Source: a virus. From it: a stretch of DNA of 47,248 bases. Each line of letters begins with the position of its first letter. The stretch's first letter is position 1. The notes under the pieces are model-generated. The model saw only the letters and a list, made by a program, of their open reading frames with translations, was not told the DNA's origin and ran no database searches. Positions 2,287 to 40,010 of the stretch are shown here, one piece after another. The stretch covers positions 1 through 47,248 of IMG/VR virus record IMGVR_UViG_3300008113_000326; one strand, given 5' to 3'. A program made the translations under genes and the position numbers.

Positions 2287-4605
2287 ATGAAAATTATAAC
2301 GGTACAAAAGCGCTCGGGGCAGCGTGAGCCACTGGCTATCGAAAAATGGCAAACCCAGGTAGCAAAAGTATGTCAAGGAATAGCAGATGTAAGTCAAAGC
2401 ATGGTAGAGATCAAGGCGCAATTGCACTTTTATGATGGCATTACCACCAAAGAAATTGACGGTATCACACTCAGAGCAATTGTAGACTTGATTGACGTGG
2501 AATCAAACCCGGATGTAGGTCATACCAATTACCAATACGTGGCAGGTAAACAGCGTCTTAGCATGTTGAGAAAAGATGTGTATGGCTGCTATGATGTGCC
2601 ATCACTGTACACGATTGTAAAAAAGAATGTGGCCACCGGCCTGTACACTCCTGAACTGCTGGAGTGGTACACCGAAGACGACTGGAATCGCATGGATTCT
2701 TTCATTGACCACAGCAAAGATGAATTGTACGGCTATGCTGCCATAGAACAACTGATTGAAAAATATCTAGTTAAAAACCGCTCATCAGGACAAATTTATG
2801 AAACTCCACAAATTAGATACATGGTCGCGGCCGCTACTGTATTTCACTCAGAAGAACCGAACACAGCGAGAATGCGCTACATCAAAGAATATTACAACGC
2901 AGCTTCAGACGGTCTCTTTACTCTTGCTACTCCTGTACTTGCTGGACTGGGCACTCCTACAAAGCAATTTTCAAGTTGTGTTCTTATACGCAGCGATGAT
3001 GACCTGGATAGCATATTTGCTTCGGGCGAGATGATGGCCAAGTATGCCAGCAAACGAGCTGGCATTGGGCTAGAGATTGGTAGATTGCGTCCACTAGGTT
3101 CGCCCATCCGGGGCGGTGAGATCATGCACACAGGTATGATTCCATTCTTAAAGAAGTGGTTTGGAGATTTGCGCTCATGCTCACAAGGAGGTATTCGTAA
3201 TGCAAGTGCTACTGTATTTTATCCTATTTGGCATCATCAGTTTGATGATCTTATTGTGCTTAAAAACAACCAAGGAACAGAAGAAACCCGAGTCCGTCAT
3301 ATGGATTATGGGGTTGTGCTTAGTGCTTTCTTCTGGAGACGATTCAAGAACAAACAAGACATAACTTTCTTTGATCCCAACCAAGTTCCAGATCTGTATC
3401 AAGCATTCTACAGCAATACTGAGTTGTTTGAAGAACTGTATGTGAAATACGAAAAGCAGTCTGATCTACGCAAAAAGACCATGAGCGCAGAAGAAGTGTT
3501 CAAATCAGGCATTCTCAAAGAGCGCACTGATACAGGACGTATCTATCTTGTGTTCATTGACAATGTGATGAAGCAGGGTCCTTTTGATCCCGAATACCAT
3601 ACCATTTACCAGAGTAACCTTTGCTGTGAAATACTTTTACCTACTAAGTCCTTTAAACGTCTGGATGACGATAGCGGTCGTATCGCACTTTGCACCTTGG
3701 GCTCAATCAATTGGGGTGCGTTCCGTAATCCAGAAGACATGCGCCGTGCTTGTCGTATACTGCATCGTAGCCTCAACAACATTCTTGACTATCAAGACTT
3801 TCTTTCCATCCAGTCTAAATTATCCAACGACGAAATCAGACCGCTTGGAATCGGTATCACCAACCTTGCCTACTGGCACGCCAAGCGAAGCCTCAGGTAC
3901 GGTGAGAAGGAGGCTCTAGCCGAAGTCAAAACCTGGATGGAGCACCAAACATATTATCTAACTGAAATGAGTGTTGAATTGGCAGAGGAACGAGGACGAT
4001 GTGAAGGCAGTGATCACACACGCTATGGACAAGGACAGTTTCCCTGGGAACTTCGTGCAGTAGGTGTAAACGAACTGACTGATTTTACTCCTGAACTTGA
4101 ATGGGAAACACTTCGTGCTAGAATGAAAGTCAGCGGAGTTCGTAATGCTACCAATGGAGCAATTGCTCCTGTTGAATCCAGTTCAGTGGCCATCAACTCA
4201 ACCAACGGCATCGAAATGCCCATGAGTCTGATCACTGTGAAAGAAAGTAAGGCTGGCAGTTTGATTCAAGTAGCACCCGAGTACAACCGTTTGAAAAACA
4301 AATATCAACTGATGTGGGCACAAAAAGATTGCGACGGCTACTTGAAAACTGCTGCTGTATTGGCAGCCTATGTGGACCAAAGCATTAGCACCAACACCTT
4401 TTACAATCCTGCACACTTTGCAGATCGTAAAGTGCCCACCACCCTGATTGCTCGTAACTTGATGCAGTCACACTACTGGGGTTTGAAAACTTTCTACTAC
4501 AGCCTGATCAACAAACAAGGTAGCAAAGGCCAAGACGAACCTGAAGCACCATTGGAAGTGATTGACTTTGATGATCAAGAAGATTGCGAAAGTTGTAAAC
4601 TATAA
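2287..4605 (+). CDS. nrdA: Ribonucleoside-diphosphate reductase, class Ia alpha subunit
   Basis: Reduces ribonucleoside diphosphates to deoxyribonucleotides for phage DNA synthesis; partner of NrdB at 5885. At 772 residues it matches the E. coli protein (761). An ATP-cone-like domain occupies about residues 1-90. Active-site residues are present: C231 and C469 (redox pair), the N-x-C-x-E motif N444/C446/E448, and the radical-transfer tyrosines Y737 and Y738. The C-terminal redox pair is CxxC (C767, C770, ...DCESCKL) instead of the CxxxxC spacing of E. coli NrdA. AAGG lies a few bases before ATG 2287. It leads a cluster with an aldolase-like gene, nrdB and a glutaredoxin. Confidence 0.97.
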   Translation: MKIITVQKRSGQREPLAIEKWQTQVAKVCQGIADVSQSMVEIKAQLHFYDGITTKEIDGITLRAIVDLIDVESNPDVGHTNYQYVAGKQRLSMLRKDVYGCYDVPSLYTIVKKNVATGLYTPELLEWYTEDDWNRMDSFIDHSKDELYGYAAIEQLIEKYLVKNRSSGQIYETPQIRYMVAAATVFHSEEPNTARMRYIKEYYNAASDGLFTLATPVLAGLGTPTKQFSSCVLIRSDDDLDSIFASGEMMAKYASKRAGIGLEIGRLRPLGSPIRGGEIMHTGMIPFLKKWFGDLRSCSQGGIRNASATVFYPIWHHQFDDLIVLKNNQGTEETRVRHMDYGVVLSAFFWRRFKNKQDITFFDPNQVPDLYQAFYSNTELFEELYVKYEKQSDLRKKTMSAEEVFKSGILKERTDTGRIYLVFIDNVMKQGPFDPEYHTIYQSNLCCEILLPTKSFKRLDDDSGRIALCTLGSINWGAFRNPEDMRRACRILHRSLNNILDYQDFLSIQSKLSNDEIRPLGIGITNLAYWHAKRSLRYGEKEALAEVKTWMEHQTYYLTEMSVELAEERGRCEGSDHTRYGQGQFPWELRAVGVNELTDFTPELEWETLRARMKVSGVRNATNGAIAPVESSSVAINSTNGIEMPMSLITVKESKAGSLIQVAPEYNRLKNKYQLMWAQKDCDGYLKTAAVLAAYVDQSISTNTFYNPAHFADRKVPTTLIARNLMQSHYWGLKTFYYSLINKQGSKGQDEPEAPLEVIDFDDQEDCESCKL

Positions 4606-5228
4606 TGTTAGAAACCATTTGTGATGTGATGTTGGATGCGTATAAACGCAATTGGATTACCAGTCGTGATGGCAATGTGAGTATTCGTCATCACGACCGT
4701 GACCATTTTTATATCACACCCAGCGGTGTGCGTAAACAAACACTACAACCAGACCAGTTCAAGAAGATTCGTATTGTTGGCAGTATGTTGTGGGAAGAGC
4801 AGCCATACACTGATATCAGTGCCAATCTTAAACCGTCGGGCGAACTACCCCTGCACCTTGGACTACAGCGAAAAATGGGTCAGCACCGTAATGAAGTGCG
4901 AGTAGTGGTTCACCTACATCCAACCTACTGTATAGCGGCCATGCATGCTGGCATCGATTTGAGCACAGTTAGTGCTGAGTTTCCGGAACTGAATCGCTAC
5001 ACTCGGGTAGCACCCAATGTGGGGGATGTGGCTCCCATCAGTCAAGAGCTTGCAGACCAGTGCCACACTATGTTACACTTAGACGATGAAGGCAATATTG
5101 CTTACGACATTGTAGGCATCAAAGGACATGGTGTAGTGGCCATTGACACAAGTCCGTGGCGTGCTTACGAGCACATAGAAAGACTAGAACACATTTGCAA
5201 GATAGTGCTTGCATCAGGAAAATATTAA
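4605..5228 (+). CDS. Class II aldolase/adducin family protein
   Basis: 207-residue protein of the class II aldolase/adducin fold, whose members are metal-dependent sugar-phosphate aldolases, epimerases or dehydratases. Visible features are the N-terminal NWITSRDGNVSIR and ITPSGVRKQ phosphate-site motifs, SGELPLHL with candidate acidic residue E80, and the metal ligands H103 and H105 (HLHP) and H175 (GIKGHGVV). All catalytic positions look intact, so it is probably active. The substrate is unknown. Its start overlaps the nrdA stop by one base (TAATG), so it is translationally coupled within the ribonucleotide reductase operon. That is unusual company and hints at sugar-phosphate or nucleotide salvage chemistry; this is inference. 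Confidence 0.85.
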   Translation: MLETICDVMLDAYKRNWITSRDGNVSIRHHDRDHFYITPSGVRKQTLQPDQFKKIRIVGSMLWEEQPYTDISANLKPSGELPLHLGLQRKMGQHRNEVRVVVHLHPTYCIAAMHAGIDLSTVSAEFPELNRYTRVAPNVGDVAPISQELADQCHTMLHLDDEGNIAYDIVGIKGHGVVAIDTSPWRAYEHIERLEHICKIVLASGKY

Positions 5229-5861
5229 ATGAGTTTTTTAGTAGCAAATTTGCCACCAGTGAAATGTTTTGTTCGTAGGGAATTTCTCTATGACTTTGAA
5301 AAGGGGCACGGAGAGCTGGAACCCTGTTGGTGGATATCGATAAAGTCTCAACGGAGTCAAGCATTTAGAATTGAATCATATTTAAATCAGTATGGTGCGC
5401 TATATGACAAACTTCCACTGCATGCATTTTGTTGGAAACCCATAGAGGGAGATCCATATCCTTTAGATTTCTTACAATTATGGAACAGCATGTCTTATGA
5501 CATCACTGTGATTAAAAAAGCAATGATAGCAAATATGAGATGTAAAATCAAGATGAAAGATGGATCTTGGTTAGAAGGAGAATATCTTTTTACAGTTGAT
5601 TCAGCACATCCAGATTTTAATGTGTTAGATTGTGGCCACAGTGAAGATGTTGAAGATCACAAAAGTTTTAACTTTATCAAATGTGACAACGGTCAATTTG
5701 CTGCCCAGCCAAACAATCGTGTTGTTATTTTAGAACCGGCAAGTAATCCCAAAGAAATGAAAATACCAGATTTTAATGTCGCTACCACCAGATGGAATGT
5801 TGAAATGGACCCAAAGTGGGACTATGGCCTGCCGGAAAACAAATGGCGTATGAACGAATAA
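5229..5861 (+). CDS. Conserved phage hypothetical protein in RNR operon
   Basis: 210 residues, starting immediately after the aldolase stop. The N-terminus MSFLVANLPPVKCFVRREFL and the middle PHPDFNVLDCGHSEDVEDHK-like section (residues ~125-145) look conserved, and I recall similar proteins in large aquatic myophages with no assigned function. There is no signal peptide or membrane segment. The DNA is visibly more AT-rich than nrdA or nrdB, which could mean a different origin. It sits between the aldolase and nrdB with no room for a separate promoter. Confidence 0.7.
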   Translation: MSFLVANLPPVKCFVRREFLYDFEKGHGELEPCWWISIKSQRSQAFRIESYLNQYGALYDKLPLHAFCWKPIEGDPYPLDFLQLWNSMSYDITVIKKAMIANMRCKIKMKDGSWLEGEYLFTVDSAHPDFNVLDCGHSEDVEDHKSFNFIKCDNGQFAAQPNNRVVILEPASNPKEMKIPDFNVATTRWNVEMDPKWDYGLPENKWRMNE

Positions 5862-5884
5862 AAACAAATAAAAGGAAAATACCA

Positions 5885-6985
5885 ATGAGCCAAGCGCAAT
5901 ACAATTTAAAAACAAAAACAGATTATCTCAATCGCAAGATGTTTCTGGACCCAGCTGGTCCTGTGACCATTCAACGCTTTGAAGAAGTCAAATACAACAA
6001 GATTGTAAAATTTGAACAAGAGGCTCGAGGCTTTTTCTGGGTGCCCGAAGAAGTCAGCTTGACCAAGGATGCCAACGACTTCAAGGAAGCCAGCAGCACA
6101 GTCAAACACATCTTTACCAGTAACCTGCTGCGTCAAACAGCACTAGACAGTTTACAAGGTCGTGGACCCACACAGGTGTTTACTCCTGTGGTATCAATTC
6201 CTGAATTAGAAGCCTTGATGTACAACTGGGGATTCTTTGAAACCAATATTCACAGTAGAAGTTACAGTCACATCATCCGTAACGTCTACAATGTGCCCAA
6301 GGATGTGTTCAGCACAATCCATGACACCCGAGAAATTGTTGAAATGGCCAGTACAATTGGCCTGTATTATGATCGCCTGCACATGATCAACTGCCGCAAA
6401 GAACTACAAGAAGATTTTGACGAACATGAACACATCAAAGCCATCTGGTTAGCACTGAATGCCAGCTACGGTCTGGAAGCGTTTCGCTTTATGGTCAGCT
6501 TTGCCACCAGCTTGGCCATGGTTGAGAACAGAATTTTCATTGGTAATGGCAATATCATCAGCTTGATTCTACAAGACGAAATCCTACACAAGGACTGGAC
6601 AGCTTGGATTATCAATCAGGTGGTCAAAGAAGATCCACGCTTTGCACGAGCCAAGCAAGAATGTGAAGCTGAAGTGTATCAAATGTACTTGGATGTTATC
6701 CGTGAAGAAAAATCCTGGGCCGATTACTTGTTCAACCAAGGACCAGTGATTGGTCTCAATGCCAACATTCTCAAAGACTTTGTGGACTACACTGCTGTGA
6801 GCGCACTAAAAGAAATTGGTATCAAATATCAAGAACCTGCACCTCGTTCAACTCCTATTCCTTGGTTCAACAAGCATGTGGACACACACAAGAAACAATC
6901 TGCCTTGCAGGAAACAGAATCAACCAATTATGTTATCGGAGTCATGAGTGATCAACTGGACTACGATGCACTACCGGAGCTATAA
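5885..6985 (+). CDS. nrdB: Ribonucleoside-diphosphate reductase, class Ia beta subunit
   Basis: Diiron/tyrosyl-radical subunit that powers NrdA; 366 residues from ATG 5885, which follows AAGGAAA. An upstream in-frame start at 5816 would lie inside the preceding gene and lacks a ribosome site. Metal ligands visible: D88 (LDSLQG), E119, H123, E198 (LEAFRF), E232 and H235 (DEILH). The radical tyrosine is Y127 in HSRSY. Oddity: the first helix reads E-T-N-I-H, i.e. ExxxH, where E. coli NrdB and relatives have ExxH. The C-terminal tail ends in a hydrophobic/acidic stretch of the kind that docks on NrdA. Confidence 0.96.
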   Translation: MSQAQYNLKTKTDYLNRKMFLDPAGPVTIQRFEEVKYNKIVKFEQEARGFFWVPEEVSLTKDANDFKEASSTVKHIFTSNLLRQTALDSLQGRGPTQVFTPVVSIPELEALMYNWGFFETNIHSRSYSHIIRNVYNVPKDVFSTIHDTREIVEMASTIGLYYDRLHMINCRKELQEDFDEHEHIKAIWLALNASYGLEAFRFMVSFATSLAMVENRIFIGNGNIISLILQDEILHKDWTAWIINQVVKEDPRFARAKQECEAEVYQMYLDVIREEKSWADYLFNQGPVIGLNANILKDFVDYTAVSALKEIGIKYQEPAPRSTPIPWFNKHVDTHKKQSALQETESTNYVIGVMSDQLDYDALPEL

Positions 6986-7968: not shown

Positions 7969-8235
7969 ATGCCAGCAGTTCAACGAGTGGGTGATGTGGA
8001 TTCAGGTGGTGGCGTAATCACCAGCGGGGTTGACTCTGTACGAATCAACGGAATTCCTGTGAGTGTCAATGGCTCTGGCGTGAGTCCTCATGCTCGTAGA
8101 AATAGTCATAGACCAGTAACAGCCGGTGGTGTTGATTCTGTCATGGCCGGTGGCTCACCAATCAATGTTGCAGGCAATGCTGACACCTGTGGTCATGCAC
8201 GAACTGGCGGCAGCTCTAACGTGAGTGCAGGATAA
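7969..8235 (+). CDS. PAAR-motif protein, tail spike tip
   Basis: 88-residue glycine-rich protein with the PAAR layout: VDSGGGVITSGVDSVRINGI, later GVDSVMAGGSPINVAG, with paired histidine/cysteine segments SPHARRNSHRP and DTCGHARTG that would bind one metal ion at the apex. PAAR proteins cap the central spike of contractile tails (the T4 gp5.4 position) and help pierce the outer membrane. It overlaps the next gene by one base, indicating co-translation with another structural protein. Confidence 0.85.
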   Translation: MPAVQRVGDVDSGGGVITSGVDSVRINGIPVSVNGSGVSPHARRNSHRPVTAGGVDSVMAGGSPINVAGNADTCGHARTGGSSNVSAG

Positions 8236-10283
8236 TGGCTGCTAGCATACTTACTCCCTTGCAGATCACTGCTAGTGCTGCACTGCTCAATAACCAGGGT
8301 CTCAAACCTTTGCCCAGTGCTCTTACCGCAGCACTGGCAGCATTCAATGCCACTCCATTGATCACTGCATACCAGGCCGCTGTGGCCTATTATCTTGCAC
8401 AAACATACAAAACAACCAGCACATTGACAGCGTTGTTGAGCATGGGCAGCACCACTTGTCCGGCTCTGGGCAACAGTATTCCTGCTGCTCCAATTGGTAC
8501 ATTTACAAATCTTGTTTACCCAACTGCTACCACTGGCAGTGTTGTGGTACAGGAACTACCAACATCACCGTATGGATTTTCTGGCCTGGCCGAACAAACA
8601 GGCAATGCTTACCTGGGCAATGGTGACGCAGGCCGCTTTGCTCAGGGATTTTTAACAGTACAAGGTTTTATCAGCATTACCAATGATTACATAAACTCAG
8701 CAGTAAACGCCAATACCTATCTTGGACCAACGTTTACCAACATGGATGCACTAGTCACTGCTGACATCAGCACAGTGAATACTGATATTGAAAATTTTGG
8801 TGTGGACTTGGAAAAACAAGGCCAGTTGGTCAATCTTGCAAATTTAAACTTGTATGGAACACCAGCTGGACTCATACAGCAAATCAGTGCTCAGGCTGGC
8901 ATAACTGATGCAGCAATTCCAGTGCTACAACAAGCGCTGACAAATGCTGGGTTGTCCAGAACAAACATTAGAGATCTAGTGCAAAACAATGTTCAGAGTT
9001 TGTTGAATCCCAGTGGCCTGTCTGCAAATCAATTTGATCGATTACAAAAAGTTGCCTGGTTGGCCATGACCGCAGTTGGTGCTGATGAGTTGACACAGAT
9101 TTTGAGCATACTGGAAGTAACAACTCCCAACATTGTTGCACTCAGTGATTTGCTGGATCCGGTCAAGGTATTTCCCCTTAGTTACGCTACCTTACAAACA
9201 CCCAGTCCCGATGGATCGGTTCCAATATTTAATTCTACCGGCGCTGTGAACTCCGACATACAGCCCATTGTCAACAGCTACTTGCCCAGCCAATCAGGTT
9301 GCGACGAACTGGGAAAAATCATACCACAGGCTGATGCAGTAGCCAACAAAGCAATTCAAGTTGCCTTGCAACAGATTCCAGGCATTGCCAATTCGTCTTT
9401 GCCAGCATTGGCAGAAACAGCAAGAGGTTACACTGATCAATCTTGGGATCCTGCACAGCCTTATCTTGTGAATGATCTGGTTGCTGATGGTGAAACAGTG
9501 CCTGAGTTTTATCGTGCTCAACAAGATGTGCCAGCTGGCATAGATATTGGCAATACCACTTACTGGTCACCTACCACACTGGATGGTCTCAGCACCATGG
9601 CGGGTCTGCCACTGGTACAAGACCTAGCAACTCCTGTTCCTGCTGCTGTCACTAGTTTTTTTGCCAACAACATTGCCACAGGCACAGGACCCGAAGGCAC
9701 CATTACCACTTGTGATGTACTGGGCACAGCAATTGACTACAACAACATTGCCACACCATTTGACACAGCCACTGCTACCATCACAGCACTTGACGGTGCT
9801 GGCACACTAAACGCACTCAAGGCCACATATGCTGGTATGTTGACTGCTGCCAACGATGCTGCAATGATAGCTTATATTGCCACTGCCAACGCAGACATCA
9901 GCACTGTGATTGCTGCGGCCCCAGCGTCTACTACCATATTGAACACTGCGTTTGTTGCAATTGCACAATCACTCAGTGACGAAAAGGCATTGCAGATTCG
10001 AGCTGGCATTAATTATTTTGATCTGCCGCCGGGCGAACAAACAAGTGTGATGGCATTCATACAAAATCTTGCTGGTTATGCACAACTGACTGCTGATTGT
10101 GAAGCTGCTGAGTTCCTGGAACAAATTGCTGACACGTCAATAGTGGGCGGTCAAGCCTTGATTGGTGCCATGCGCGAAGCTAGAAACAAACAGTATATAC
10201 AAGAATCCAACATGTTTATGTTCAACAACGTGCCTTTGGATCCGCCGTTGGTTCCAATTCCTGTTGTGGTTCCAGTGCAATGA
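8235..10283 (+). CDS. Large Ala/Thr-rich structural protein, probably tail or baseplate
   Basis: 682 residues, strongly enriched in A, T, L, N and I, without a signal peptide. Long amphipathic stretches with ALAAFNAT-type spacing suggest an extended helical protein. Around residues 395-435 it carries WDPAQPYLVNDLVADGE followed by FYRAQQDVPAGIDIGNTTYW, a CBM5/12-like sugar-binding module common in tail fibres and similar to a segment of the tail spike at 95. The C-terminus is proline/valine rich (VPLDPPLVPIPVVVPVQ). Its position after the PAAR tip supports a virion role. The exact family is not recognised. Confidence 0.65.
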   Translation: MAASILTPLQITASAALLNNQGLKPLPSALTAALAAFNATPLITAYQAAVAYYLAQTYKTTSTLTALLSMGSTTCPALGNSIPAAPIGTFTNLVYPTATTGSVVVQELPTSPYGFSGLAEQTGNAYLGNGDAGRFAQGFLTVQGFISITNDYINSAVNANTYLGPTFTNMDALVTADISTVNTDIENFGVDLEKQGQLVNLANLNLYGTPAGLIQQISAQAGITDAAIPVLQQALTNAGLSRTNIRDLVQNNVQSLLNPSGLSANQFDRLQKVAWLAMTAVGADELTQILSILEVTTPNIVALSDLLDPVKVFPLSYATLQTPSPDGSVPIFNSTGAVNSDIQPIVNSYLPSQSGCDELGKIIPQADAVANKAIQVALQQIPGIANSSLPALAETARGYTDQSWDPAQPYLVNDLVADGETVPEFYRAQQDVPAGIDIGNTTYWSPTTLDGLSTMAGLPLVQDLATPVPAAVTSFFANNIATGTGPEGTITTCDVLGTAIDYNNIATPFDTATATITALDGAGTLNALKATYAGMLTAANDAAMIAYIATANADISTVIAAAPASTTILNTAFVAIAQSLSDEKALQIRAGINYFDLPPGEQTSVMAFIQNLAGYAQLTADCEAAEFLEQIADTSIVGGQALIGAMREARNKQYIQESNMFMFNNVPLDPPLVPIPVVVPVQ

Positions 10284-10338
10284 TCCAGACAATTTACCCA
10301 TCCCAGTTACTATTACGATAAGTAATAGTCTGTAACAG

Positions 10339-10367
10339 TTGACTCTGGGTCATATTGCTGTTACAAT
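10339..10367 (+). promoter_or_regulatory. Sigma70-type promoter of the porin gene
   Basis: TTGACT at 10339-10344 and TACAAT at 10362-10367 with exactly 17 bases between them. It lies 34 bases before the porin start, in a 118-base gap that interrupts an otherwise tightly packed plus-strand operon. It differs from the promoter module repeated elsewhere because it lacks the ATAAACAGCAA leader. It should be readable by unmodified host RNA polymerase. Confidence 0.8.
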
Positions 10368-10401
10368 TAGTATCTTCACTACGAATCTATAAGGAGAATA
10401 T

Positions 10402-11289
10402 ATGAAGAAAATTGCTTTAGTTTTGGCCATGTTTTTGGCTACAGGTGCCGCACAAGCACAAGTTGCTGTGTACGGTAAAGTACGCCAGTATTTGAATACC
10501 GACGCTGTTGGCACTGCCAGCAGTGTTACTGCTTTGACAAATAATACCAGTCGTCTCGGATTCCGTGCTAGTGAAAAGTTAGCCAATGGTTTTGTTGCGT
10601 CTGCTGTTGTTGAGACCAGTGTGTTAGCTGATGCTCCAGGTGCCACCAGCCTAGGCGATCGCGAAAGCACTATTGGCTTGTCCAACAACATGATTGGCGT
10701 GCGTATGGGTCGTGCATCACATGCATATGATTCTGTAATCAGTGCATTTAGTCCTGTGAATGATTTTGGTGCCAGCACTGAAACCACTCACACTCAGCCG
10801 TCAAGCCGCATTCAGAATGCTGTGTTTGGTTCTATGAACGTGGGCCCTGCCGCTGTGCGTTACGATCGTGGACTGTCTGAAGTTGCTGGTACTAATGACG
10901 TGCAAGTTGGAAGTATTGCTGCCACTTTTGGTCGTGTTGCTGTTGGCGCTGCCCGTCACACTGGTTCTGCTAGTGACTATAGCTCTGTCGGTGCCAGCTA
11001 CAATGCAGGCATTGCCACTGTGTACGGCCTGTGGAGCGAGCAAAAAACTGCTGGTGCCACCGTCAACACTGGCAAGAGCGTAGGTGTTGCTGTTCCTGTA
11101 GCAGGAACTCCTGTAACAGTAAAAGGTTCTTATGGTATCAACACCGCTGACACCAAGAGCTACAACGTGCAGACCACTTATGCATTCAGCAAAACAACAT
11201 CTGCTCATGCTGTGTTCCGCAAAGACGAAGCAGTTCTTGCAACGAATAACCGCCAGCAATTTGGTGTTGGTCTAGAATACAATTTCTAA
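10402..11289 (+). CDS. Outer-membrane general porin (Porin_4-like)
   Basis: 295-residue precursor. A Sec signal peptide covers residues 1-19 (MKKIALVLAMFLATGAAQA), then the mature start QVAVYGKVRQYLN. SRLGFRASEKLANGFVASAV and STIGLSNNMIGVRMGRASHA (residues ~50-105) are the conserved first strands of the Gram-negative porin family typical of betaproteobacteria. Alternating hydrophobic/polar strands continue to the end, which is LEYNF: a terminal phenylalanine is the BAM insertion signal. It is shorter than typical bacterial members (about 350), suggesting trimmed loops. It has its own promoter, AAGGAG, and double terminators. Possible roles are receptor masking or altered permeability; the role is inference. 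Confidence 0.88.
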   Translation: MKKIALVLAMFLATGAAQAQVAVYGKVRQYLNTDAVGTASSVTALTNNTSRLGFRASEKLANGFVASAVVETSVLADAPGATSLGDRESTIGLSNNMIGVRMGRASHAYDSVISAFSPVNDFGASTETTHTQPSSRIQNAVFGSMNVGPAAVRYDRGLSEVAGTNDVQVGSIAATFGRVAVGAARHTGSASDYSSVGASYNAGIATVYGLWSEQKTAGATVNTGKSVGVAVPVAGTPVTVKGSYGINTADTKSYNVQTTYAFSKTTSAHAVFRKDEAVLATNNRQQFGVGLEYNF

Positions 11290-11293
11290 ACCC

Positions 11294-11323
11294 AAAGTAC
11301 TACTGTAAAAAGTAGTACTTTTT
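11294..11323 (+). terminator. Rho-independent terminator 1 after porin
   Basis: AAAGTACTACT (11294-11304), a six-base loop, AGTAGTACTTT (11311-11321) and a T run. The 11-bp stem begins four bases after the porin stop codon. Confidence 0.8.
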
Positions 11324-11329
11324 GCTAAC

Positions 11330-11355
11330 AAAACCCTGCCCTGTGCAGGGTTTTT
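11330..11355 (+). terminator. Rho-independent terminator 2 after porin
   Basis: AAAACCCTGC (11330-11339), loop CCTGT, GCAGGGTTTTT (11345-11355). It forms a tandem pair with the terminator at 11294, so porin transcription is strongly insulated from the next promoter, which starts eight bases later. Confidence 0.88.
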
Positions 11356-11362
11356 CTTTTGG

Positions 11363-11391
11363 TTGACCATTAATGCCCAATTTGCTATAAT
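11363..11391 (+). promoter_or_regulatory. Repeated sigma70 promoter module, copy 1
   Basis: TTGACC (11363-11368), 17-base spacer, TATAAT (11386-11391). It is followed by a conserved leader (ACACATAGACAGCAA) and AAGGAG, with 30 bases between the -10 box and the start codon at 11422. It belongs to a family of near-identical modules also found at 11610, 34540, 37758, 38322, 45550 and 45889. Confidence 0.88.
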
Positions 11392-12369: not shown

Positions 12370-13743
12370 ATGAATGCAATTGATTTTAGTGACACAAGGT
12401 TTGAAGGCGTAGTGGCTGCAGGATGGATTCGCGATCTTGAAAGCAGCGACAGTCGAATACACAAAGAAAAAGTGATCGAAAAAGCTCTAATGGCCTCTAA
12501 ACTGGGATCAACAGATGCTCAATGCTTTTTGTTCAACTGCTATCAGGCCTACAACCCCTTCCATGTGTTTGGGGTCAAGCAAGTGCCAGAGACCACTGGA
12601 CTTGAGTCTCGACCCAATAACTGGCCTGTGTTCTGGGGTCTGTGTGAAGCACTGCGTACTCGTAGCCTAACCGGGCACGAAGCTCGTGATCGTATCACGG
12701 CCATCAGCCAAGAGTTTGACAGCGATGAATGGAACATGGTGTGCCGACGAGTGCTGATCAAAGACCTGCGGTGTGGCGTTAGTGAAAAGACCATAAACAA
12801 GGTTGTGGGCCGAACAGAATGGAAAATCCCTGTGTTCAATGTACAATTGGCGCAGGACTCAACTGATCAGCCCAAGAAGATGAAGGGCATCAAACGTCTG
12901 GAAGTCAAGCTGGACGGTGTGCGTGTTATTGCAGTGGTGTCTGGTAATGGCTGTGTGTTATACAGCCGTAATGGCAAGGAGTTTGAAAACTTTCCGCAGA
13001 TTGCTGAGGCTATTCTGAACAACCGTCGGGCATTCCAATACGGTCGAGGCACAGGTGGTCACTTTGTGTTGGATGGTGAAATTGTGGGTGAGAATTTCCA
13101 AGCCTTGATGAAACAGGCACAACGCAAAAGCAATGCCAAAACAACTGACATGGTTTATCACATTTTTGATATCATCCCATTGGATGCACTCAAAGAAGGC
13201 CATTGCAACTTGCAACAGCACAAACGTATAGCATGGCTAGAAAGTGCAAAAACGGTGTTGGACGAAACCGATTGTTTGCGTATTATGCCAGGAATGGATG
13301 TGGATCTGGATACTGCTGAAGGGCATGATGTCATGCGCCGCTTTGCCGAAGCGTCAGTTGAGCAAGGTTATGAAGGCATCATGATCAAGAATCTTGACGC
13401 TCCCTACGAATGCAAGCGTAGTGATCACTGGATGAAATGGAAACCCACAATCACAGTGGACTTGACCATTGTGGGATTTGAAGAAGGAACTGGTCGCAAT
13501 GCAGGCCGGCTTGGTGCTATAATTTACGAAGGAGTTGACAATGAACGAAATATTCGGGTTAATGTTGGTACTGGCTATAGCGATAATGATCGTGATGAGT
13601 TTTGGGCTGCCAGGGATCAGTTACTTGGTGTCATTGGCGAAATCCAAGCTGATGCAGTTACTCAGAATCAAGACGGATCATACAGTCTGAGATTCCCTAG
13701 ACATGTTCGATTCCGCGGATTCGAAGCAGGTGAAAAACTGTAA
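12370..13743 (+). CDS. ATP-dependent DNA ligase
   Basis: 457 residues, similar in size to T4 gp30 (487). It seals nicks during replication and repair. Motif I is K180-L-D-G-V-R, where K180 carries the AMP. LDGEIVGENF gives D235/E237, EGIMIKN (E335) is motif IV, and WMKWKP (K356, K358) is motif V. The C-terminal part forms an OB-fold region (VDLTIVGFEEGTGRNAGRLG, residues ~363-382). The N-terminal ~170 residues resemble the helical DNA-binding domain of viral ligases. No strong Shine-Dalgarno sequence precedes ATG 12370, which lies 12 bases after the previous stop. Confidence 0.95.
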   Translation: MNAIDFSDTRFEGVVAAGWIRDLESSDSRIHKEKVIEKALMASKLGSTDAQCFLFNCYQAYNPFHVFGVKQVPETTGLESRPNNWPVFWGLCEALRTRSLTGHEARDRITAISQEFDSDEWNMVCRRVLIKDLRCGVSEKTINKVVGRTEWKIPVFNVQLAQDSTDQPKKMKGIKRLEVKLDGVRVIAVVSGNGCVLYSRNGKEFENFPQIAEAILNNRRAFQYGRGTGGHFVLDGEIVGENFQALMKQAQRKSNAKTTDMVYHIFDIIPLDALKEGHCNLQQHKRIAWLESAKTVLDETDCLRIMPGMDVDLDTAEGHDVMRRFAEASVEQGYEGIMIKNLDAPYECKRSDHWMKWKPTITVDLTIVGFEEGTGRNAGRLGAIIYEGVDNERNIRVNVGTGYSDNDRDEFWAARDQLLGVIGEIQADAVTQNQDGSYSLRFPRHVRFRGFEAGEKL

Positions 13744-17332: not shown

Positions 17333-18826
17333 ATGATATTTGGATACTTCACCCTTTTTGTTGCACTGATACTCAGTGCAGTGGCAGCATACTACAGCAT
17401 TGTTGGTCTCACAGCAATTTTCAGTGCGGCTATTATTCCCATTGTTATCATGGGTGCAAGTTTGGAAATTGGCAAAGTCACAGCCGCAGTTTGGTTGAAG
17501 CTGAATTGGCATCGTGCCAGTCTAACTTATAAACTGTATCTGGTGCCGGCACTGGTATTCCTCATGCTGTTGACCAGCATGGGTATCTTTGGCTTCTTGA
17601 GCAAGGCACACAGCGACCAAAGTCTAGTGTCGGGCGATGTTACCAGTAAGATTGCAATATACGATGAAAAGATCAAAACCGAAAAAGAGAATATTGAGGC
17701 AAACCGTAAGGCACTTAAACAGATGGATGAAGGAGTGGACCAAGTATTGGGCCGCTCAGCAGATGAAAAAGGTGCCGACAAAGCAGTGGCTCTGCGTAGG
17801 TCCCAGCAGAAAGAACGTGCTCGCCTTCAAGCTGAAATATCGCAGTCGCAAAAGTCTATTGCGGAACTTGGTGATGCCCGTGCGCCTATTGCCGCTGAGG
17901 TCCGTAAAGTTGAAGCCGAGGTTGGACCAATAAAATACATTGCGGCATTTATCTATGGTGACAACCCAGATGCCAATTTGTTGGAAAAAGCAGTGACATG
18001 GGTGATTATTATTATTGTTGCAGTGTTTGACCCTCTGGCACTGGTGCTGATCCTTGCTGCTCAACAAAGTTTAAAGTGGGAACGGCAGGCTCGAGAGGAT
18101 CGAGCAGCCATGGGCATTGTGCCTCCTGATGTGGTCACACGACCGTTTACCCCAGAAGAAATTGCAGCGTTGGATCAGACTGAACCTGACCCCAAGTATG
18201 ATCCTGATGACGGACCGTTGACCACTGACCAAGTGCAACAGATCAAAAAAACAACAGCAGAACAACACCCTTATCTTGCTCAGCCTTTTGTGCATTTTAA
18301 AAATCTTAAACCTATAGTACATAAAGTAGAAGATGAATATGTTAAATGGCCGGGCGGTGTAGGAGAACAACCTGTACTGGATTCCGAAGATGATCTATCA
18401 GACGAAGATGATCATCCCAAAGTAAAGGAAGCCATAAAGATCTGGAAAATGGCCAACCCCAATGAAACCATCAAGGAACAAAGACATCGTCTGGCCCGCG
18501 GGATAATTTCTGAATTACCCTGGATGAAGCTGATAGAGGATACGGTGCCGCAAGGCGTAAATCAAGGATTTGGTGCAGCGTTTCCTGTTACTGCAAACAA
18601 AGGTGACACATTTATTCGTGTTGACCGACTGCCCAATCAGGTATACAAGTTCAATGGTATTGACTGGATACAGATTGACAAACAGCTTAGTGACAGTTAC
18701 ACTTACGATGAAGCCTACATTGATTATCTTATTGAAAAAATCAGTGTGGGCGAATATGACGCAGAGCTACTGAGTGACAGTGAGCGTGATCAAGTGGCAG
18801 TTAGATTACAACAAACCAAGCAATGA
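17333..18826 (+). CDS. Membrane-anchored coiled-coil protein
   Basis: 497 residues. Transmembrane segments lie at about 4-24, 29-47 and 66-88, then a coiled coil (~110-195: [35 protein letters not shown]), then another strong membrane segment (~221-245: [20 protein letters not shown]). A long acidic, probably flexible C-terminal half follows. I recall related proteins in large T4-like aquatic phages, sometimes called structural, without proof. It could sit in the host inner membrane. It overlaps clpX by four bases (ATGA), so the two are co-translated. Confidence 0.7.
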
Positions 18827-20025
18827 AAAATAACGAAACAATCGATTCATGCAGTTTTTGTGGCAAACACAAAGACGTAGTAACCAAGCTCATTGTGGGT
18901 GAGAATGTTGCTATTTGCAATGAGTGTGTGGACCTGTGTGAAAATTTACTCAAAGACGAGGTAACAGTTGATGTTGTTGCAGAGGCAACTCTAGACCCTC
19001 AAAAGATCAAACAACATCTTGATCAATATGTGATTGGACAAGACCGTGCCAAACAGGTTCTGAGCGTGGCAGTAGTAAATCACTACAAACGTATTTCAAA
19101 CACTGATCCTGATATTGAAATTGAAAAAACCAACATACTCATGCTTGGCCCCACGGGATCTGGCAAAACACTGCTGGCTCGCAGTGTGGCTCGTTATTTG
19201 GATGTGCCATTTGTGATTGCAGATGCCACCAGTCTTACTGAAGCTGGATATGTTGGCGACGACGTGGAAAGCATGATCTCTCGATTGTTTGCTGCCAGCG
19301 GCAACGATGTTGAAAAGACCCAGCGAGGCATTGTGTTTATTGACGAGATTGATAAAATTTCTCGTAAAAGCGAGAGTGCTAGTATCACCCGTGACGTGTC
19401 AGGAGAAGGGGTGCAACAGGCCCTGCTCAAACTGGTTGAAGGCACCAAGTGTAGAATCACTCCACAGGGTGGTCGCAAGCATCCGTCGGGTGACACTGTG
19501 GAAATTGACACCCGTAATATTTTGTTTATTGCAGGTGGTGCATTTGTTGGCCTGGAGAACGTGGTCAAAAGTCGTGTGAAAGGCACCAGCATTGGATTTG
19601 GTGCCGAAGTCAACAACAAGAATGCCGGAGGACTTGATCAAGTGACTCCAGATGATCTTGTGAGATTTGGCATGATCCCTGAGTTTGTGGGACGTTTTCA
19701 AAGCTGGGTAGCACTGAAAGAGCTGTCCAAAGATGACCTGATCATGATCCTTACTGATATACGTCACAGCTACATCAGTCAGTACAACTGGTTGTTTGGT
19801 CGAGATCAAGTTGATCTTAAATTTAGCAAAGAAAGTCTTGAACTGATTGCAGAACGCACACTCAAGAACAAAACAGGTGCTAGAGGTCTGCATTCAGAAC
19901 TGGAACGAGTGTTGCTGCCACATATGTTTTATTTGAGCAGCTACAAAACCCAAGGCATCAAGTGCGTGGACATTGGTGTAGATCAAGTAAACTCACCAAC
20001 AGAATTGAAACAAGTCAATGAGTAA
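18823..20025 (+). CDS. clpX: ATP-dependent unfoldase ClpX
   Basis: AAA+ unfoldase that feeds substrates to ClpP. It has 400 residues against about 424 in E. coli. The N-terminal zinc domain is intact (C10, C13, C32, C35). Walker A is GPTGSGKT (109-116), Walker B ends in D174-E175, the pore loop GYVG is at 142-145, the ClpP-docking IGF loop at 257-259, and the sensor-2 arginine is R354 in GARGL. Every element needed for unfolding and ClpP docking is therefore present. Two ClpP-type proteases are encoded 22-24 kb away and ClpS two genes downstream. Confidence 0.97.
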
Positions 20026-28813: not shown

Positions 28814-29530
28814 TTATTGCGGCTGTCTTGTGGTCACAGTTGCGAGGCCCAGGGATTTAAGCACAGTGATATACATCCAGCCTATGTCAAACTCAAACCA
28901 ACGACGGCTCAGTCGAGGGTTAGCAGGATCCAGATGATGGTTATTATGCAGGCATTCCCCACCAACAATAATATCCCAAGGACTAATGTTTCTACTGTGA
29001 TCTTTGGTTTTGCCATTTCGATATCCTATCCAGTGTCCTACACCGTTGACCACACCTGCGGCCCAGAACGGTATCCAAATCATTTGTATGCCCCAGATCA
29101 AGGGCCCCCACCAGCCAAACACTGCTAGGTTGAACACAAAGAGAATGCCAATGCCAAGTCTACTGTGAGCAGTGTATACGTTGCGCTCCACCCAATCAGC
29201 AGGAGTACCACGACCGTATGAATCAACCATGACTTTATCTTTGCTTGCTGCATGATATAACATTGCTCCTCGAAATAATACACGCCAAATGCCATAAACA
29301 TGTGGACTGTGTGGATCACCGGCTTGATCAGTCTTTTGATGATGCTTGCGGTGTATGGCAACCCATTGTTTGGTAACCATGCCAGTGGTCAACCATAACC
29401 AAAATCTCATGGCATGAGCAATCACAGGGTGAAAAGTCACTCCACGATGTGCTTGGCCACGGTGCAAAAACAAAGTCACGCACACTATGGTAATGTGCGT
29501 GACTACAAGAGTGTAAATTAAATATGTCAT
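28814..29530 (-). CDS. Membrane fatty acid desaturase
   Basis: 238 residues from the ATG at 29530, which overlaps the upstream stop (TAATG); the longer frame from 29611 would start inside that gene. It introduces a double bond into acyl chains with a diiron centre. All three histidine boxes are present: HRGQAH (H23, H28), HRKHHQ (H60, H63, H64) and HNNHH near residue 200. Hydrophobic stretches at about 5-22, 42-58 and ~130-165 fit the usual membrane topology. The closest pattern is the acyl-lipid/acyl-CoA delta-9 group. It would alter host membrane fluidity during infection; this is inference. Confidence 0.93.
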   Translation of the reverse strand: MTYLIYTLVVTHITIVCVTLFLHRGQAHRGVTFHPVIAHAMRFWLWLTTGMVTKQWVAIHRKHHQKTDQAGDPHSPHVYGIWRVLFRGAMLYHAASKDKVMVDSYGRGTPADWVERNVYTAHSRLGIGILFVFNLAVFGWWGPLIWGIQMIWIPFWAAGVVNGVGHWIGYRNGKTKDHSRNISPWDIIVGGECLHNNHHLDPANPRLSRRWFEFDIGWMYITVLKSLGLATVTTRQPQ

Positions 29531-30051
29531 TACATACTTAGTGGTATCCACATCCACAAGGCTTGACTTGCTAGGCCTGCTCCCACAGACCCTACCACAA
29601 TACTGATCCAAAACATGGGCATGCTCACAGCCAGGATACTGGCAGTCAACAACACAATGCCAATTTGCAACACACTACCAGCCCAGGTAAACCAAGGAGA
29701 GCGTTGGCGTGCCTCATCACGTTCTTGTTCTAGAGCACGTGCCCGGGTCATGATTTCTTCTTTGTCAGCTTTCATTCTGGCAGCTTCAGCATTGAATTTT
29801 TGTTGATTTGCAGGAATCTTGCTTTCCACCGCAGCAGTTTCGTATAACACCTGACGCATGTTCTTGGCTTGATACCAGGCCCACTGATTGTTGGCTGCTA
29901 TGGTGTTGTTCATGATCTTGCTGCTGTTTTGTCCACCAATCATGGTGCTGATGGCCAGCATTGCTGCCAGCACTACAATAACAAAACCTGCACGGTCCTT
30001 GATTTGTGCTTCACGTTCTGAGCGTGACAGGGGTTTCTTTTCTTCAGTCAT
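29530..30051 (-). CDS. DUF4337-like membrane protein
   Basis: 173 residues. Membrane segments lie near 22-40 (AGFVIVVLAAMLAISTMIGG) and two at ~125-165. Between them is a helical loop with NNTIAANNQWAWYQAKNMRQ, the NNQWAWYQAK motif characteristic of DUF4337 proteins, and a coiled coil (ARALEQERDEARQRSPW). The function is unknown. It is transcribed between a coiled-coil protein and the desaturase. Confidence 0.75.
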   Translation of the reverse strand: MTEEKKPLSRSEREAQIKDRAGFVIVVLAAMLAISTMIGGQNSSKIMNNTIAANNQWAWYQAKNMRQVLYETAAVESKIPANQQKFNAEAARMKADKEEIMTRARALEQERDEARQRSPWFTWAGSVLQIGIVLLTASILAVSMPMFWISIVVGSVGAGLASQALWMWIPLSM

Positions 30052-30698: not shown

Positions 30699-33008
30699 TT
30701 ATTTTTTGTATTGACTGTCCACCATGTCTTGGTGGATTCTATCACTGCGTACCAACAGCAATCTTGCTGCAGGTGAGTCTATGTTGCGCTGCCCAGGATA
30801 GATATCAAATGGCTTGTATCCCACAGCGTCGGGTATGGTGCTGCGGCTGTATGTATCAAATCCTGCTACAAATCCCATTGCACCTAGCACTACAGATTGC
30901 AGTTCAACCTGTTGTTCCATGCTGCCTGCTGTGTCCATTTGTGCTGCCATTGCGGCAGGATTTTGTTTGGCCGCGGTTGCTGCCTTTTCACGTGCTGCTT
31001 CCATTCTGCGCTCAGCCAAGGCCTGTCGAGTGGTCTTGGGCTGCTCTTTTGACCCACCGCCGCTGGCTGTGCTGCTGGATGTGCTGCCGGTTGCATCAGC
31101 CGTCTTGGTTTCTTTCTTGCTTTCTGCAGGTGCTGCTGCGGCCACGGGTGCGGGTGGTGGCACAAGTTGTACAGGGGCAGTGGCAGAATCTGCAGGTGAT
31201 GCTGTGGCCACGGGTGCAGGTGCTGCTGGCGGAGGAGGTTCGGCTACTGGAGGAGGTGTAGCAGCCGCAGCCACTGCTACGGTTTCTGTTGCCTTGGGTT
31301 TTTCAATCACAATGTATTTCAAAGCATAAGCTTCTCGATAGCCGGTACACTGCGAATTGTAGAGTGGATCCAGGCTGCACTGTTGGTCAAAGTAGGCTTG
31401 AGCATAGCCTGTACAACCTGAATCATACAGTGGACTGACGGTGCATTGTTGTACATAATAGGCATCAGCATAACCTGGACACTGCGAATTGTACAGTGTG
31501 TTCAAGCTGCACTGTTGGTCAAAGTAGGCAGTGGCATAACCAGGGCATTGCGAATTGTAAAGTGAATTCAAACTGCACTGCTGGTCAAAGTAGGCAGTGG
31601 CATAGCCTGGGCATCCAGTGTGATACAAAGCACTGGCGGTACACTGGGAATTATAGTAGGCAGTGGCATAGCCTGGACACTGCGTATCGTACAGCGTGTT
31701 TTGACTGCACTGTTGGTTAAAATATGCCTGCTGGTATCCTGAACACTGTGAGTTGTATAGCGCATTGCTTGAGCACTGCTGGTTGAAGTATGCCTGCTGG
31801 TATCCTGGACAGTTGGGGGATGACAGTGGATTTGCTGGGCACTGATCAACCACCTCTGTGCCAGTGAATGTGTACTGTGTATTGGGTGTGAACGCACCAG
31901 CCCAGCCATGATAGATTTGGCTGTACTCACCCTTGCTGATGTCGCCTGCAACGCCTGCTGTGACATTGGCCTGCGAGTTTATTGATTGATAATTGATGCC
32001 AATATAGCCCGAATCTTTGATCTGTATATTGAAGGTGCTGGCATTGTTGGTGCCAAGATCATACACGCGATCCCAACCATATTTCATGCTGGTGCCACCG
32101 TCGCCTACTTGACTCCAGAATCTGCTGTCAGCACCGGGTCCTAGATCAGCTTGCAATCCGTAGATGGCATAGTTCCAGGTTGGCCCAGGATTGCTGTTCA
32201 AGTTAACACCTGAGCAGCAGAAGTTGTTGTTGTTGGGATTCAAAAATCCCACCACGCCATTGGTAAACATGTAACTGGTGGTGAAGTTTTGTCCATAGAA
32301 AGGAAACACAAATGGCAGATTAACTTGCTGATATGAATCGTCTGTCATGTTGTTGTAGTAGGTTTTGTATCCGGCACATGTGGGGCTGCTTTGTGGATTG
32401 GCCACACATGGATCAACAGGTGCTGAAGTGTAGTTCACAGTCATCTCAACATCACGCACCTGCGGACCGTAATAGCCGCCCCAGTGGCCGCTGTCTTTGG
32501 CCACAAACTGTATGCCCAAGGAACCAGCATCGGACAGGCTCACGCTGGTGGGCAACCCTACTGTGCCGGAAAATCTAGTCCAGTCGAACTGTGTGTTGTA
32601 GTGTCGGTCATCCTGCACCAGGAACTGATTGAATCGATTGGTCATGAATGTGGTGGCCACAATAGAGTCAGTTCCGCTTTGTAGACCACGCACACCGTTC
32701 ATGTTTCTCAAATCGTAACCCCAGTTGTATCCATTGATTTGTACACCAGAGCCAGACAGTGCTTGATTGATGGCTATGACTCTATGCACAGCAGTCAGAG
32801 TGTAGGAGAAATGTATGGTATTGGTTGCAGGATCATACAGGGGTTGTGGACCGCCCCAGCAACACTCATTGGCACCGGGATGAGTGCCAGTCACTACATT
32901 GTTCCAGTTGCCTGTGAGTGGAGCACTGGTTCCTGTGGTCTGTGCTGACACAGTCAACCCTGAGATTGACACAGCCAGTGCCACAAGCAGTTGACTGATC
33001 AGTTTCAT
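30699..33008 (-). CDS. Large exported multidomain protein with Cys-repeat array
   Basis: 769 residues. A signal peptide covers ~1-22 (MKLISQLLVALAVSISGLTV). Residues ~23-390 form beta-rich domains, including LPFVFPFYGQNFTTSYMFTN (nidogen-like look) and a second module with GYIGINYQ. Residues ~390-561 hold eight 22-residue Cys repeats. A Pro/Ala-rich linker (~570-640) and a helical C-terminus (QALAERRMEAAREKA, then GFDTYSRSTIPDAV) follow. It is probably secreted or outer-membrane linked during infection, or a virion decoration. It overlaps the upstream exported-protein gene by four bases. I recall similar architectures in large aquatic phages, without a known role. Confidence 0.8.
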   Translation of the reverse strand: MKLISQLLVALAVSISGLTVSAQTTGTSAPLTGNWNNVVTGTHPGANECCWGGPQPLYDPATNTIHFSYTLTAVHRVIAINQALSGSGVQINGYNWGYDLRNMNGVRGLQSGTDSIVATTFMTNRFNQFLVQDDRHYNTQFDWTRFSGTVGLPTSVSLSDAGSLGIQFVAKDSGHWGGYYGPQVRDVEMTVNYTSAPVDPCVANPQSSPTCAGYKTYYNNMTDDSYQQVNLPFVFPFYGQNFTTSYMFTNGVVGFLNPNNNNFCCSGVNLNSNPGPTWNYAIYGLQADLGPGADSRFWSQVGDGGTSMKYGWDRVYDLGTNNASTFNIQIKDSGYIGINYQSINSQANVTAGVAGDISKGEYSQIYHGWAGAFTPNTQYTFTGTEVVDQCPANPLSSPNCPGYQQAYFNQQCSSNALYNSQCSGYQQAYFNQQCSQNTLYDTQCPGYATAYYNSQCTASALYHTGCPGYATAYFDQQCSLNSLYNSQCPGYATAYFDQQCSLNTLYNSQCPGYADAYYVQQCTVSPLYDSGCTGYAQAYFDQQCSLDPLYNSQCTGYREAYALKYIVIEKPKATETVAVAAAATPPPVAEPPPPAAPAPVATASPADSATAPVQLVPPPAPVAAAAPAESKKETKTADATGSTSSSTASGGGSKEQPKTTRQALAERRMEAAREKAATAAKQNPAAMAAQMDTAGSMEQQVELQSVVLGAMGFVAGFDTYSRSTIPDAVGYKPFDIYPGQRNIDSPAARLLLVRSDRIHQDMVDSQYKK
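31326..31841 (-). repeat. Eight tandem 22-codon repeats inside an exported protein gene
   Basis: 516 bases encode eight in-phase units of 22 codons (the last lacks four). The consensus is C-S-x-N-x-L-Y-x-S-x-C-x-G-Y-x-x-A-Y-[FY]-x-x-Q. Each unit has two cysteines ten residues apart plus invariant GY and AY. Base-level divergence between units is moderate with most changes silent, so the array is selected at protein level. Unit number probably varies among relatives. Confidence 0.9.
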
Positions 33009-33580
33009 TTGACCTCGGGAGTCTCAGACACAACAGCAGCAGGTGCTTTTTTGGCCGGTACGCCGTAGAAGCCAATGGCTTTTTTGTCATCTGCTAGCAC
33101 ACCGCGACTGTCCCATTCGGCCTTGGCCTGTGTGCCAATTTTGCCGTCTATGGGGCAAGGTGTTCCTGCTGCAATCATGGCAGCAAACACACGCTCGTCT
33201 TGACACAAGGTAGCCACGGCTGCTACTTTCATGCCCATGTCAAACAAGTTCTTGCTGAGTTTGATGCGTTCGCAGTTCATGTCCCGCATGGTACCGCCCA
33301 TGCTGAATCCAAAAATCTGTGTTTGCACAGCACCTGACGCTACCACCGCACACACATCATTGTTGATGGTTGTGACTGCTGGTGCCACGGCTGTGGGTGG
33401 TGGCGACTTTAGAGTCTGAGTGCTGTCACTCACACTACGACTGTCACTGATGTTGGTATTGGTATTGTTGCTGGTGCTAGTACTACGACTGGTACTGTCA
33501 GTCACAATAGGATCGCTTTGTGCAAAAGACGAAATCACAGTCATGCTCAACACAACTGCTAACAATTTTACTTTTTTCAT
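33005..33580 (-). CDS. Exported protein paired with the repeat protein
   Basis: 191 residues. Signal peptide ~1-20 (MKKVKLLAVVLSMTVISSFA), a Ser/Thr/Asn-rich linker (~27-55), then a conserved core VCAVVASGAVQTQIFGFSMG, GTMRDMNCERIKLSKNLFDM and KVAAVATLCQDERVFAAMIA with four cysteines. I remember similar cores in large aquatic T4-like phages, often beside a repeat protein, but without function. It is periplasmic by prediction. A TATAAATA box lies upstream at 33626-33633. It overlaps the repeat gene (ATGA), suggesting the two products act together. Confidence 0.75.
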   Translation of the reverse strand: MKKVKLLAVVLSMTVISSFAQSDPIVTDSTSRSTSTSNNTNTNISDSRSVSDSTQTLKSPPPTAVAPAVTTINNDVCAVVASGAVQTQIFGFSMGGTMRDMNCERIKLSKNLFDMGMKVAAVATLCQDERVFAAMIAAGTPCPIDGKIGTQAKAEWDSRGVLADDKKAIGFYGVPAKKAPAAVVSETPEVK

Positions 33581-38752: not shown

Positions 38753-38995
38753 ATGAAACGTTGTGCTATACTGCTGGCCCTGGTGCTGACTGGCTGTGCA
38801 ATACATCAGGTGCCACCACCCAGTGTGCAGGTCATGCCCACAGATTGTGCAAATCGTACCAGTATTATAAATTGGCTTGAAAGCCAAGCTCGCCATCCCC
38901 GTCAATCATTTGAAAGCCAACAGCACTATGAACAAAATCGCGCCGAGATCCGCAGTCGTATTTGGCATCTGCGTTATCGCTGTCAGCCTGTTTAG
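38753..38995 (+). CDS. Small lipoprotein, overlapping the next lipoprotein gene
   Basis: 80 residues with a lipoprotein signal peptide: MKRCAILLALVLTGC, lipobox LTGC with lipidated C15. The mature part starts AIHQVPPPSVQVMP and is basic with two further cysteines (DCANR..., RYRCQPV). Its last 68 bases overlap, in another frame, the start of the next lipoprotein gene at 38928. A role in lysis (outer-membrane spanin-like) or superinfection exclusion is possible. Confidence 0.65.
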   Translation: MKRCAILLALVLTGCAIHQVPPPSVQVMPTDCANRTSIINWLESQARHPRQSFESQQHYEQNRAEIRSRIWHLRYRCQPV

Positions 38996-39278
38996 TGGTT
39001 GTGCCGCCACAGGTCGCGCTGATCGTATTCCCATGCGAGAAGTAGACTTGAAAAATTGGCATCATGATTGCAAACACAAGACTGAGCAAGTGGCCATGTT
39101 GCAACAAATGCGACAAACTCCAGACGAACGTGCCATGGCCAAATTGTCCAATGCTGTCACCCCTTGGACCAAGTATACCAATCCTGATCAGCATCGTGAA
39201 AATCGCATGCAGGGCATGGGACAAAACAACTGGTATATTGATTATCATCTTTTACTTCTTGCAAGGGACTGCCCATGA
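38928..39278 (+). CDS. Lipoprotein, unknown
   Basis: 116 residues from ATG 38928, inside the 3' part of the previous gene. The membrane-targeting segment SAVVFGICVIAVSLFSGC has a lipobox (FSGC). The mature part includes VDLKNWHHDCKHKTEQVAML and ENRMQGMGQNNWYIDYHLLL. An upstream in-frame start at 38877 lacks a signal-like N-terminus. It overlaps the next exported-protein gene by four bases. Confidence 0.65.
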   Translation: MNKIAPRSAVVFGICVIAVSLFSGCAATGRADRIPMREVDLKNWHHDCKHKTEQVAMLQQMRQTPDERAMAKLSNAVTPWTKYTNPDQHRENRMQGMGQNNWYIDYHLLLLARDCP

Positions 39279-39850: not shown

Positions 39851-39879
39851 ACAAGCACATTAACTCAACGGAGAAATCC

Positions 39880-40002: not shown

Positions 40003-40010
40003 GGAATATG

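Follow-up and report, generated by a model that had tools for sequence, protein, structure and literature searches.

A phage-borne Porin_4 gene at a candidate cargo site for outer-membrane barrels in uncultured jumbo phages

The presence of an outer-membrane porin gene in a virus raises the question of whether the gene belongs to the phage at all and, if it does, what the infection may gain from it. The gene lies in IMG/VR record IMGVR_UViG_3300008113_000326, of which positions 1-47,248 were analysed (the window, a 47-kb fragment and not a whole genome). The original prediction had taken it for a porin carried as an insulated single-gene unit (moron) by a T4-type phage and serving to hide the receptor from competing phages or to alter the uptake of nutrients or antibiotics. 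The features referred to below are as follows.

2287..6985, + strand: nrdA to nrdB block, upstream, syntenic in relatives
8235..10283, + strand: gene for a 682-aa protein, function not assigned, 5′ border of the slot
10339..10367, + strand: sigma70-type promoter TTGACT-17-TACAAT with an extended -10 (TG)
10391..10396, + strand: ribosome-binding site AAGGAG, from sequence
10402..11289, + strand: porin gene, 295 aa, Porin_4 family, predicted 16-strand barrel
10402..10458, + strand: signal peptide, residues 1-19, cleavage between MKKIALVLAMFLATGAAQA and QV
11260..11286, + strand: C-terminal beta-signal FGVGLEYNF, also the 3′ edge of the allele swap
11294..11321, + strand: terminator hairpin 1, in tandem with hairpin 2
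11330..11354, + strand: terminator hairpin 2, CCCTGCCCTGTGCAGGG followed by a T run
11363..11391, + strand: next promoter TTGACC-17-TATAAT, directly after the terminators
12370..13743, + strand: ATP-dependent DNA ligase, syntenic downstream marker of the slot

The porin and its predicted barrel

The reading frame at 10402-11289 is intact and carries the signal peptide, the SRLGFRASEKL strand and the LEYNF end from which a porin had been recognised. Porin_4 (PF13609) is the sole Pfam family that it matches (E=8.4e-24, 85.4 bits against a curated cut-off of 27), which confirms the assignment by the database check that had been proposed; in PHROGs no family of this type was found for the 295-aa protein. 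The signal peptide and the C-terminal aromatic beta-signal are kept across the porin family, and this anatomy strongly implies that the protein is exported and folded into a barrel.

An AlphaFold2 model built with 23 family sequences has 16 strands, a mean pLDDT of 80 and a pTM of 0.73 (the five models vary, 35-80), with strands 5 and 6 joined by the constriction loop L3, a low-confidence part of the model that has a helix at residues 108-115. When loops are assigned by strand alternation from a periplasmic N-terminus, the extracellular loops L4-L8 have 7, 4, 2, 5 and 7 residues. The best PDB match, by sequence as well as by fold, is the anion-selective Omp32 of Delftia (Comamonas) acidovorans (1e54; TM 0.77, E 4e-16), other best matches being BpsOmp38, OmpT/OmpU and PorB. 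With Omp32 and other betaproteobacterial Porin_4 proteins the phage porin shares the 16-strand barrel, constriction loop, signal peptide and C-terminal F, but it is phage-encoded, only about 21% identical to Omp32 in the fold alignment, and shorter (mature 276 against 332 residues), with L4-L8 cut to 2-7 residues. The expected 16-strand barrel and the expected short loops are thus both predicted by the model. Net charge varies from -3 to +5 among the homologues, which speaks against anion selectivity as a constant property. Judging by the Porin_4 relatives and by the match to Omp32, the host may be a betaproteobacterium.

A phage gene with its own transcription signals

As Porin_4 is a bacterial family, the gene could be host DNA that was captured by chance or joined by an assembly error, with no role for the phage. 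A profile search of IMG/VR returned 37 viral porin loci, and the scans gave 10 close relatives with identities from 37% to 100%. Many contigs keep the succession nrdA - nrdB - small genes - 682-aa gene - porin - DNA ligase; in 31 of 34 loci the porin is preceded, at a distance of 75-122 bp, by a member of the 682 family, and 32 of 33 have a TTGAC-TA.AAT promoter within 250 bp on the downstream side. Wrongly joined host DNA is excluded because this synteny is conserved in more than 30 contigs, the regulatory flanks being conserved along with the position. The same conclusion is reached from L002, a separate contig from another record whose porin protein is identical to that of the window, and from dN/dS between porin alleles (0.12-0.25, with dS near saturation for the most distant pairs), by which the gene is under purifying selection. 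No close bacterial relative of the 295-aa porin was found in the GTDB scan, and the porins of Burkholderiales plasmids are only about 30-38% identical to it. Chance capture or a chimera is therefore hardly credible, and the porin is, on the comparison of these contigs, phage cargo. Two further matches were rejected, namely a Bacteroidia hit in GTDB (L047), which is a chance match of the C-terminal GVGLEYNF only, and the porins of Acinetobacter 'phage MD-2021a', a record of bacterial DNA within the phage collection. A wider phylogeny including cellular porins gave long branches and is not interpretable.

Among 50,697 GenBank phage records only HTVC008M matched the 295-aa porin, at about 30% identity. 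This Pelagibacter phage (NC_020484) is also a large myophage with a Porin_4 gene (gp042) near tail/baseplate genes, but gp042 is 29.5% identical over only one third of the protein and has a net charge of about -20, and HTVC008M is a Gp23-bearing T4-type phage without such a slot. Gp23 (PF07068) was not found in 15 IMG/VR records including the window, the records being fragments, though it was found in HTVC008M as a positive control; likewise Phage_sheath_1 was not found in ten records and was found in HTVC008M. The T4-type portal (PF07230) was found in two relatives (E 1e-106 and 6e-115), namely G019, in which the nrd-ligase block is also present, and G021, one of the carriers of the 180-aa barrel described below, and not in the porin-bearing records, which are fragments. 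Another relative, G014, has 261,673 bp, above the 200 kb taken for jumbo phages, and a DNA polymerase nearest those of the jumbo phages Phosso, Atu_ph07 and XaC1, being 42-50% identical to those of 350-490-kb phages. It encodes 29 tRNAs and a tmRNA with the tag ANDSQYLVAANA (L052-L053, 60-100 kb). We read the porin-bearing phages as a jumbo group with a T4-like portal; the T4-type label holds only in part, through the portal of the two relatives, and an ordinary T4-type phage is not what the records point to. Nor was the upstream structural operon demonstrated, the neighbours being nrdA/nrdB and the 682-aa gene.

Several other genes of the window may be noted. A ClpX-like ATPase (18823-20025) and a ClpP-family protease (40628-41206) may form a phage-borne ClpXP. 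On the minus strand, a fatty acid desaturase (28814-29611, PF00487, E 3.8e-12) adjoins a DUF4337 protein (29530-30051), a possible pair of membrane-lipid remodelling genes. Also on the minus strand, two exported proteins with no assigned family (769 aa and 191 aa) occupy 30699-33580, where G+C is 0.49-0.52 against about 0.45 around it; the larger has Cys-containing repeats (Y-F/Y-x-Q-Q-C) and a Pro/Ala-rich stretch. Three consecutive exported proteins are encoded at 38928-40586 on the plus strand, two with lipoprotein-type signal peptides and one with a weak match to a 17-kDa outer-membrane antigen.

The transcription signals agree with an insulated unit. The porin promoter pattern taken alone is within chance (5 matches in a 3-kb region, 4.0 expected); a TTGAC-17 promoter stands at the equivalent position in L003-L007, L018 and L019, as also in related loci whose leaders are otherwise about 51% identical, and relatives have (A)AGGAG or AAGGAAA at the place of the ribosome-binding site. 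The tandem hairpins fold with -27.8 kcal/mol (z = -6.2), and 0 of 200 shuffles were as good; the hairpin 2 motif or a variant of it follows most slot cargo genes of the phage group. The pattern TTGAC(17-19)TATAAT occurs at 9 sites in the window against 0.04 expected, which implies that host-type promoters are used at many genes of this phage. The promoter, the two back-to-back terminators and the insulated single-gene arrangement were all anticipated correctly, the last also because the porin is absent or replaced at this site in relatives. An inverted repeat TAACAG-N19-CTGTTA (10329-10359) brackets the -35 and overlaps the extended -10; it is also found in the leaders of L003 and L018 and so is kept in two otherwise diverged leaders, and it could possibly be an operator, or merely an extended promoter.

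Exchange of alleles and of whole barrels

Comparison of the window with the related locus L006 shows a mosaic. Promoter and signal peptide are 97-100% identical and the other conserved ends and flanks about 90-100%, but from about 10450, a break inside the signal peptide that marks the 5′ edge of the swap, identity falls to 60-87% up to about 11260; over the last nine codons and on through the terminators it is back at 93-100%. The jump is seen at synonymous sites as well (dS 0.98 in the barrel against 0.25 in nrdB, 0.20 in the 682 gene, 0.34 in the ligase and 0.15 in clpX), so that the barrel has been replaced and residue selection alone does not explain the pattern. Against L003 the pattern is reversed, with dS of 0.41 in the porin, 0.99 in nrdA and 2.4 in the 682 gene, while L018 and L003 share 87% of the leader and 93% of the signal peptide but only 47% of the mature barrel. 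From these identity profiles, porin alleles are swapped as cassettes between conserved ends.

The same site also carries other proteins. A 365-aa distant Porin_4 protein (E down to 1.5e-32) was found in 12 loci, and in 10 of 11 the gene immediately before it belongs to the 682 family. A protein of about 180 aa was found in about 79 loci, the weakest matches covering the signal peptide only; of 53 loci that could be assessed, 24 have it in the slot, next to a 682-family gene on the upstream side. It has a conserved signal peptide and a C-terminal F, and its model (pLDDT 88) has 10 strands, the nearest folds being the KdgM/NanC porins and a designed 10-strand barrel (TM 0.5-0.6); on this model it may not be an open pore. 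Although the 365-aa and 180-aa proteins have no sequence relationship, they stand behind leaders that are 90-93% identical, and for neither was a relative found in the 50,697 GenBank phage records. Among the nearest NrdB-bearing contigs, 37 extend at least 5.5 kb downstream, and 36 of these had no match to the 295-aa porin profile; two of the 36 carry the 365-aa porin and others the 180-aa barrel. Some relatives' contigs have the slot without any barrel, and other cargo includes an FG-GAP lipoprotein and small secreted proteins; in L109 (10538-11899) the slot holds a 454-aa lipoprotein with FG-GAP repeats and no barrel.

Judged from the aligned loci, the frame of the slot is a 682-family gene, a host-type promoter, an exported outer-membrane barrel, tandem terminators and an early promoter. 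With odds that we place slightly above even, this is a jumbo-phage lineage with a dedicated outer-membrane cargo slot, into which barrels of unrelated fold (the 16-strand short-loop porin, the full-size porin and the 10-strand barrel) are placed, alleles of each being swapped within the stretch from signal peptide to beta-signal; the surface or permeability of the infected cell could thereby be rapidly re-equipped.

It may be noted that phage porins are already known, both from the annotation of HTVC008M and from the viral OmpL porin that adjoins glnK-amtB in uncultured marine viruses (PMC8115048). The latter likewise stands with nutrient-acquisition genes between a promoter and a terminator, but it is of Bacteroidetes type and has another gene neighbourhood. 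Two proteins of uncultured Caudovirales in BFVD (A0A6J5L4P1 and A0A6J5LP82), from phage metagenomes and compared by protein only, also have 16-strand-porin-like models, with 14-18% identity. In the openly accessible literature that was searched, no report of such a slot was found, and the huge-phage and freshwater-phage papers examined do not mention porins. Against these papers, what is new is that jumbo phages have one fixed slot at which unrelated outer-membrane barrels recombine.

Nutrient inflow, receptor hiding or envelope load

Our preferred reading, to which we give a probability of about 0.45, is that the gene is maintained jumbo-phage cargo for a loop-trimmed porin of the Omp32/Porin_4 kind, with nutrient inflow as its main benefit and less loop exposure as a side benefit. 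Host sigma70 RNA polymerase would transcribe it as a single-gene unit from the promoter found upstream, and, as the signal peptide and beta-signal suggest, Sec would export the protein and the host BAM complex would fold it. A pore with minimal surface loops would thereby be added to the outer membrane of the infected cell, this pore or surface replacement probably being installed early in infection. In what is the weakest step, the pore would maintain or alter the entry of small nutrients, probably anions such as phosphate, during a long, DNA-hungry infection, and fewer porin loops would be exposed for rival phages to bind. Alleles and whole barrel types would be exchanged by homologous recombination in the promoter/signal-peptide and beta-signal/terminator ends, where the sequence pattern of exchange is seen.

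For nutrient inflow speak the model's nearest fold, that of an anion-selective porin, and the locus L039, where a PstS gene (PF12849, phrog_5385) lies 84 bp after a porin homologue and behind a Pho-box-like site with 2 mismatches (0 of 100 shuffles); this points at least as much to uptake as to receptor hiding. The region (L039 7564-9991) encodes cytochrome c, the porin homologue and PstS in this order and is next to genes for a metallophosphoesterase and a GtrB-like glycosyltransferase. Of 70 records searched, 22 have PstS-family genes, in most cases 17-22 kb further downstream than the slot, and their co-occurrence with the porin was strong in the first 35 records but weaker in the next 35, where several porin-less relatives had PstS. 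As PstS is also missing from the window and from G007, a porin record of 157 kb, the link is unspecific. A candidate Pho box upstream of the window porin was rejected, its 5 mismatches being within chance (10 of 100 shuffles).

Receptor hiding, as first proposed, would have a phage porin without receptor loops dilute or replace the host porins that competitors use. The temperate phage PA-2 reportedly does this with its Lc porin, which replaces host porins and blocks superinfection. Lc is likewise a phage-encoded general porin added as a single gene, but it is of the enterobacterial OmpC/OmpF type and belongs to a lysogenic phage, whereas the window porin belongs to a jumbo phage with no evidence of lysogeny. 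The L4-L8 loops of only 2-7 residues in the model, the host-type early promoter, the allele swapping and the short-looped barrel without an obvious pore that serves as the slot alternative, and would fit a surface role, are all compatible with such exclusion. Yet the extracellular loops differ less among alleles (pairwise 0.14) than the strands (0.18) and the constriction loop L3 (0.27), and we rejected antigenic loop variation as the driver of allele swapping on this ground. Between the window and L006 the differences concentrate in L3 (14 of 29 against 62 of 246 positions, Fisher p = 0.014, for this one pair), which we count in favour of uptake. The 365-aa alternative porin is full-sized, PstS adjoins the porin in L039, and replacement would be slow because existing outer-membrane proteins are barely removed within one lytic cycle. 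Although receptor hiding is the rival that we take most seriously, we consider it rather unlikely as the main role; on the sequence evidence we lean slightly, as a weak preference, to uptake over exclusion.

A less probable alternative still, and one that we regard as quite doubtful, is envelope remodelling unrelated to solute flow, whereby the barrel would load BAM or the outer membrane, alter envelope stability or vesicle release, or help lysis timing. That the slot accepts unrelated exported proteins (porins, 10-strand barrel, FG-GAP lipoprotein, small secreted proteins) and that lipoproteins, a fatty-acid desaturase and a protein like the 17-kDa outer-membrane antigen are among the other products of the window would agree with it. 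However, L3 and the pore architecture are kept in the porin model, which a pure membrane load would not need.

Natural porins with minimal loops may serve as nanopore scaffolds. For the phages themselves, phage-borne porins had so far been scattered cases, and here they recur under selection and are exchanged within a widespread group of uncultured jumbo phages. What is gained by adding outer-membrane proteins to a doomed cell is a long-standing question, which can be put to the test by comparing similar phages that differ in cargo type. A fixed slot with varying outer-membrane proteins, or none, suggests that remodelling of the host cell surface is routine for these viruses.
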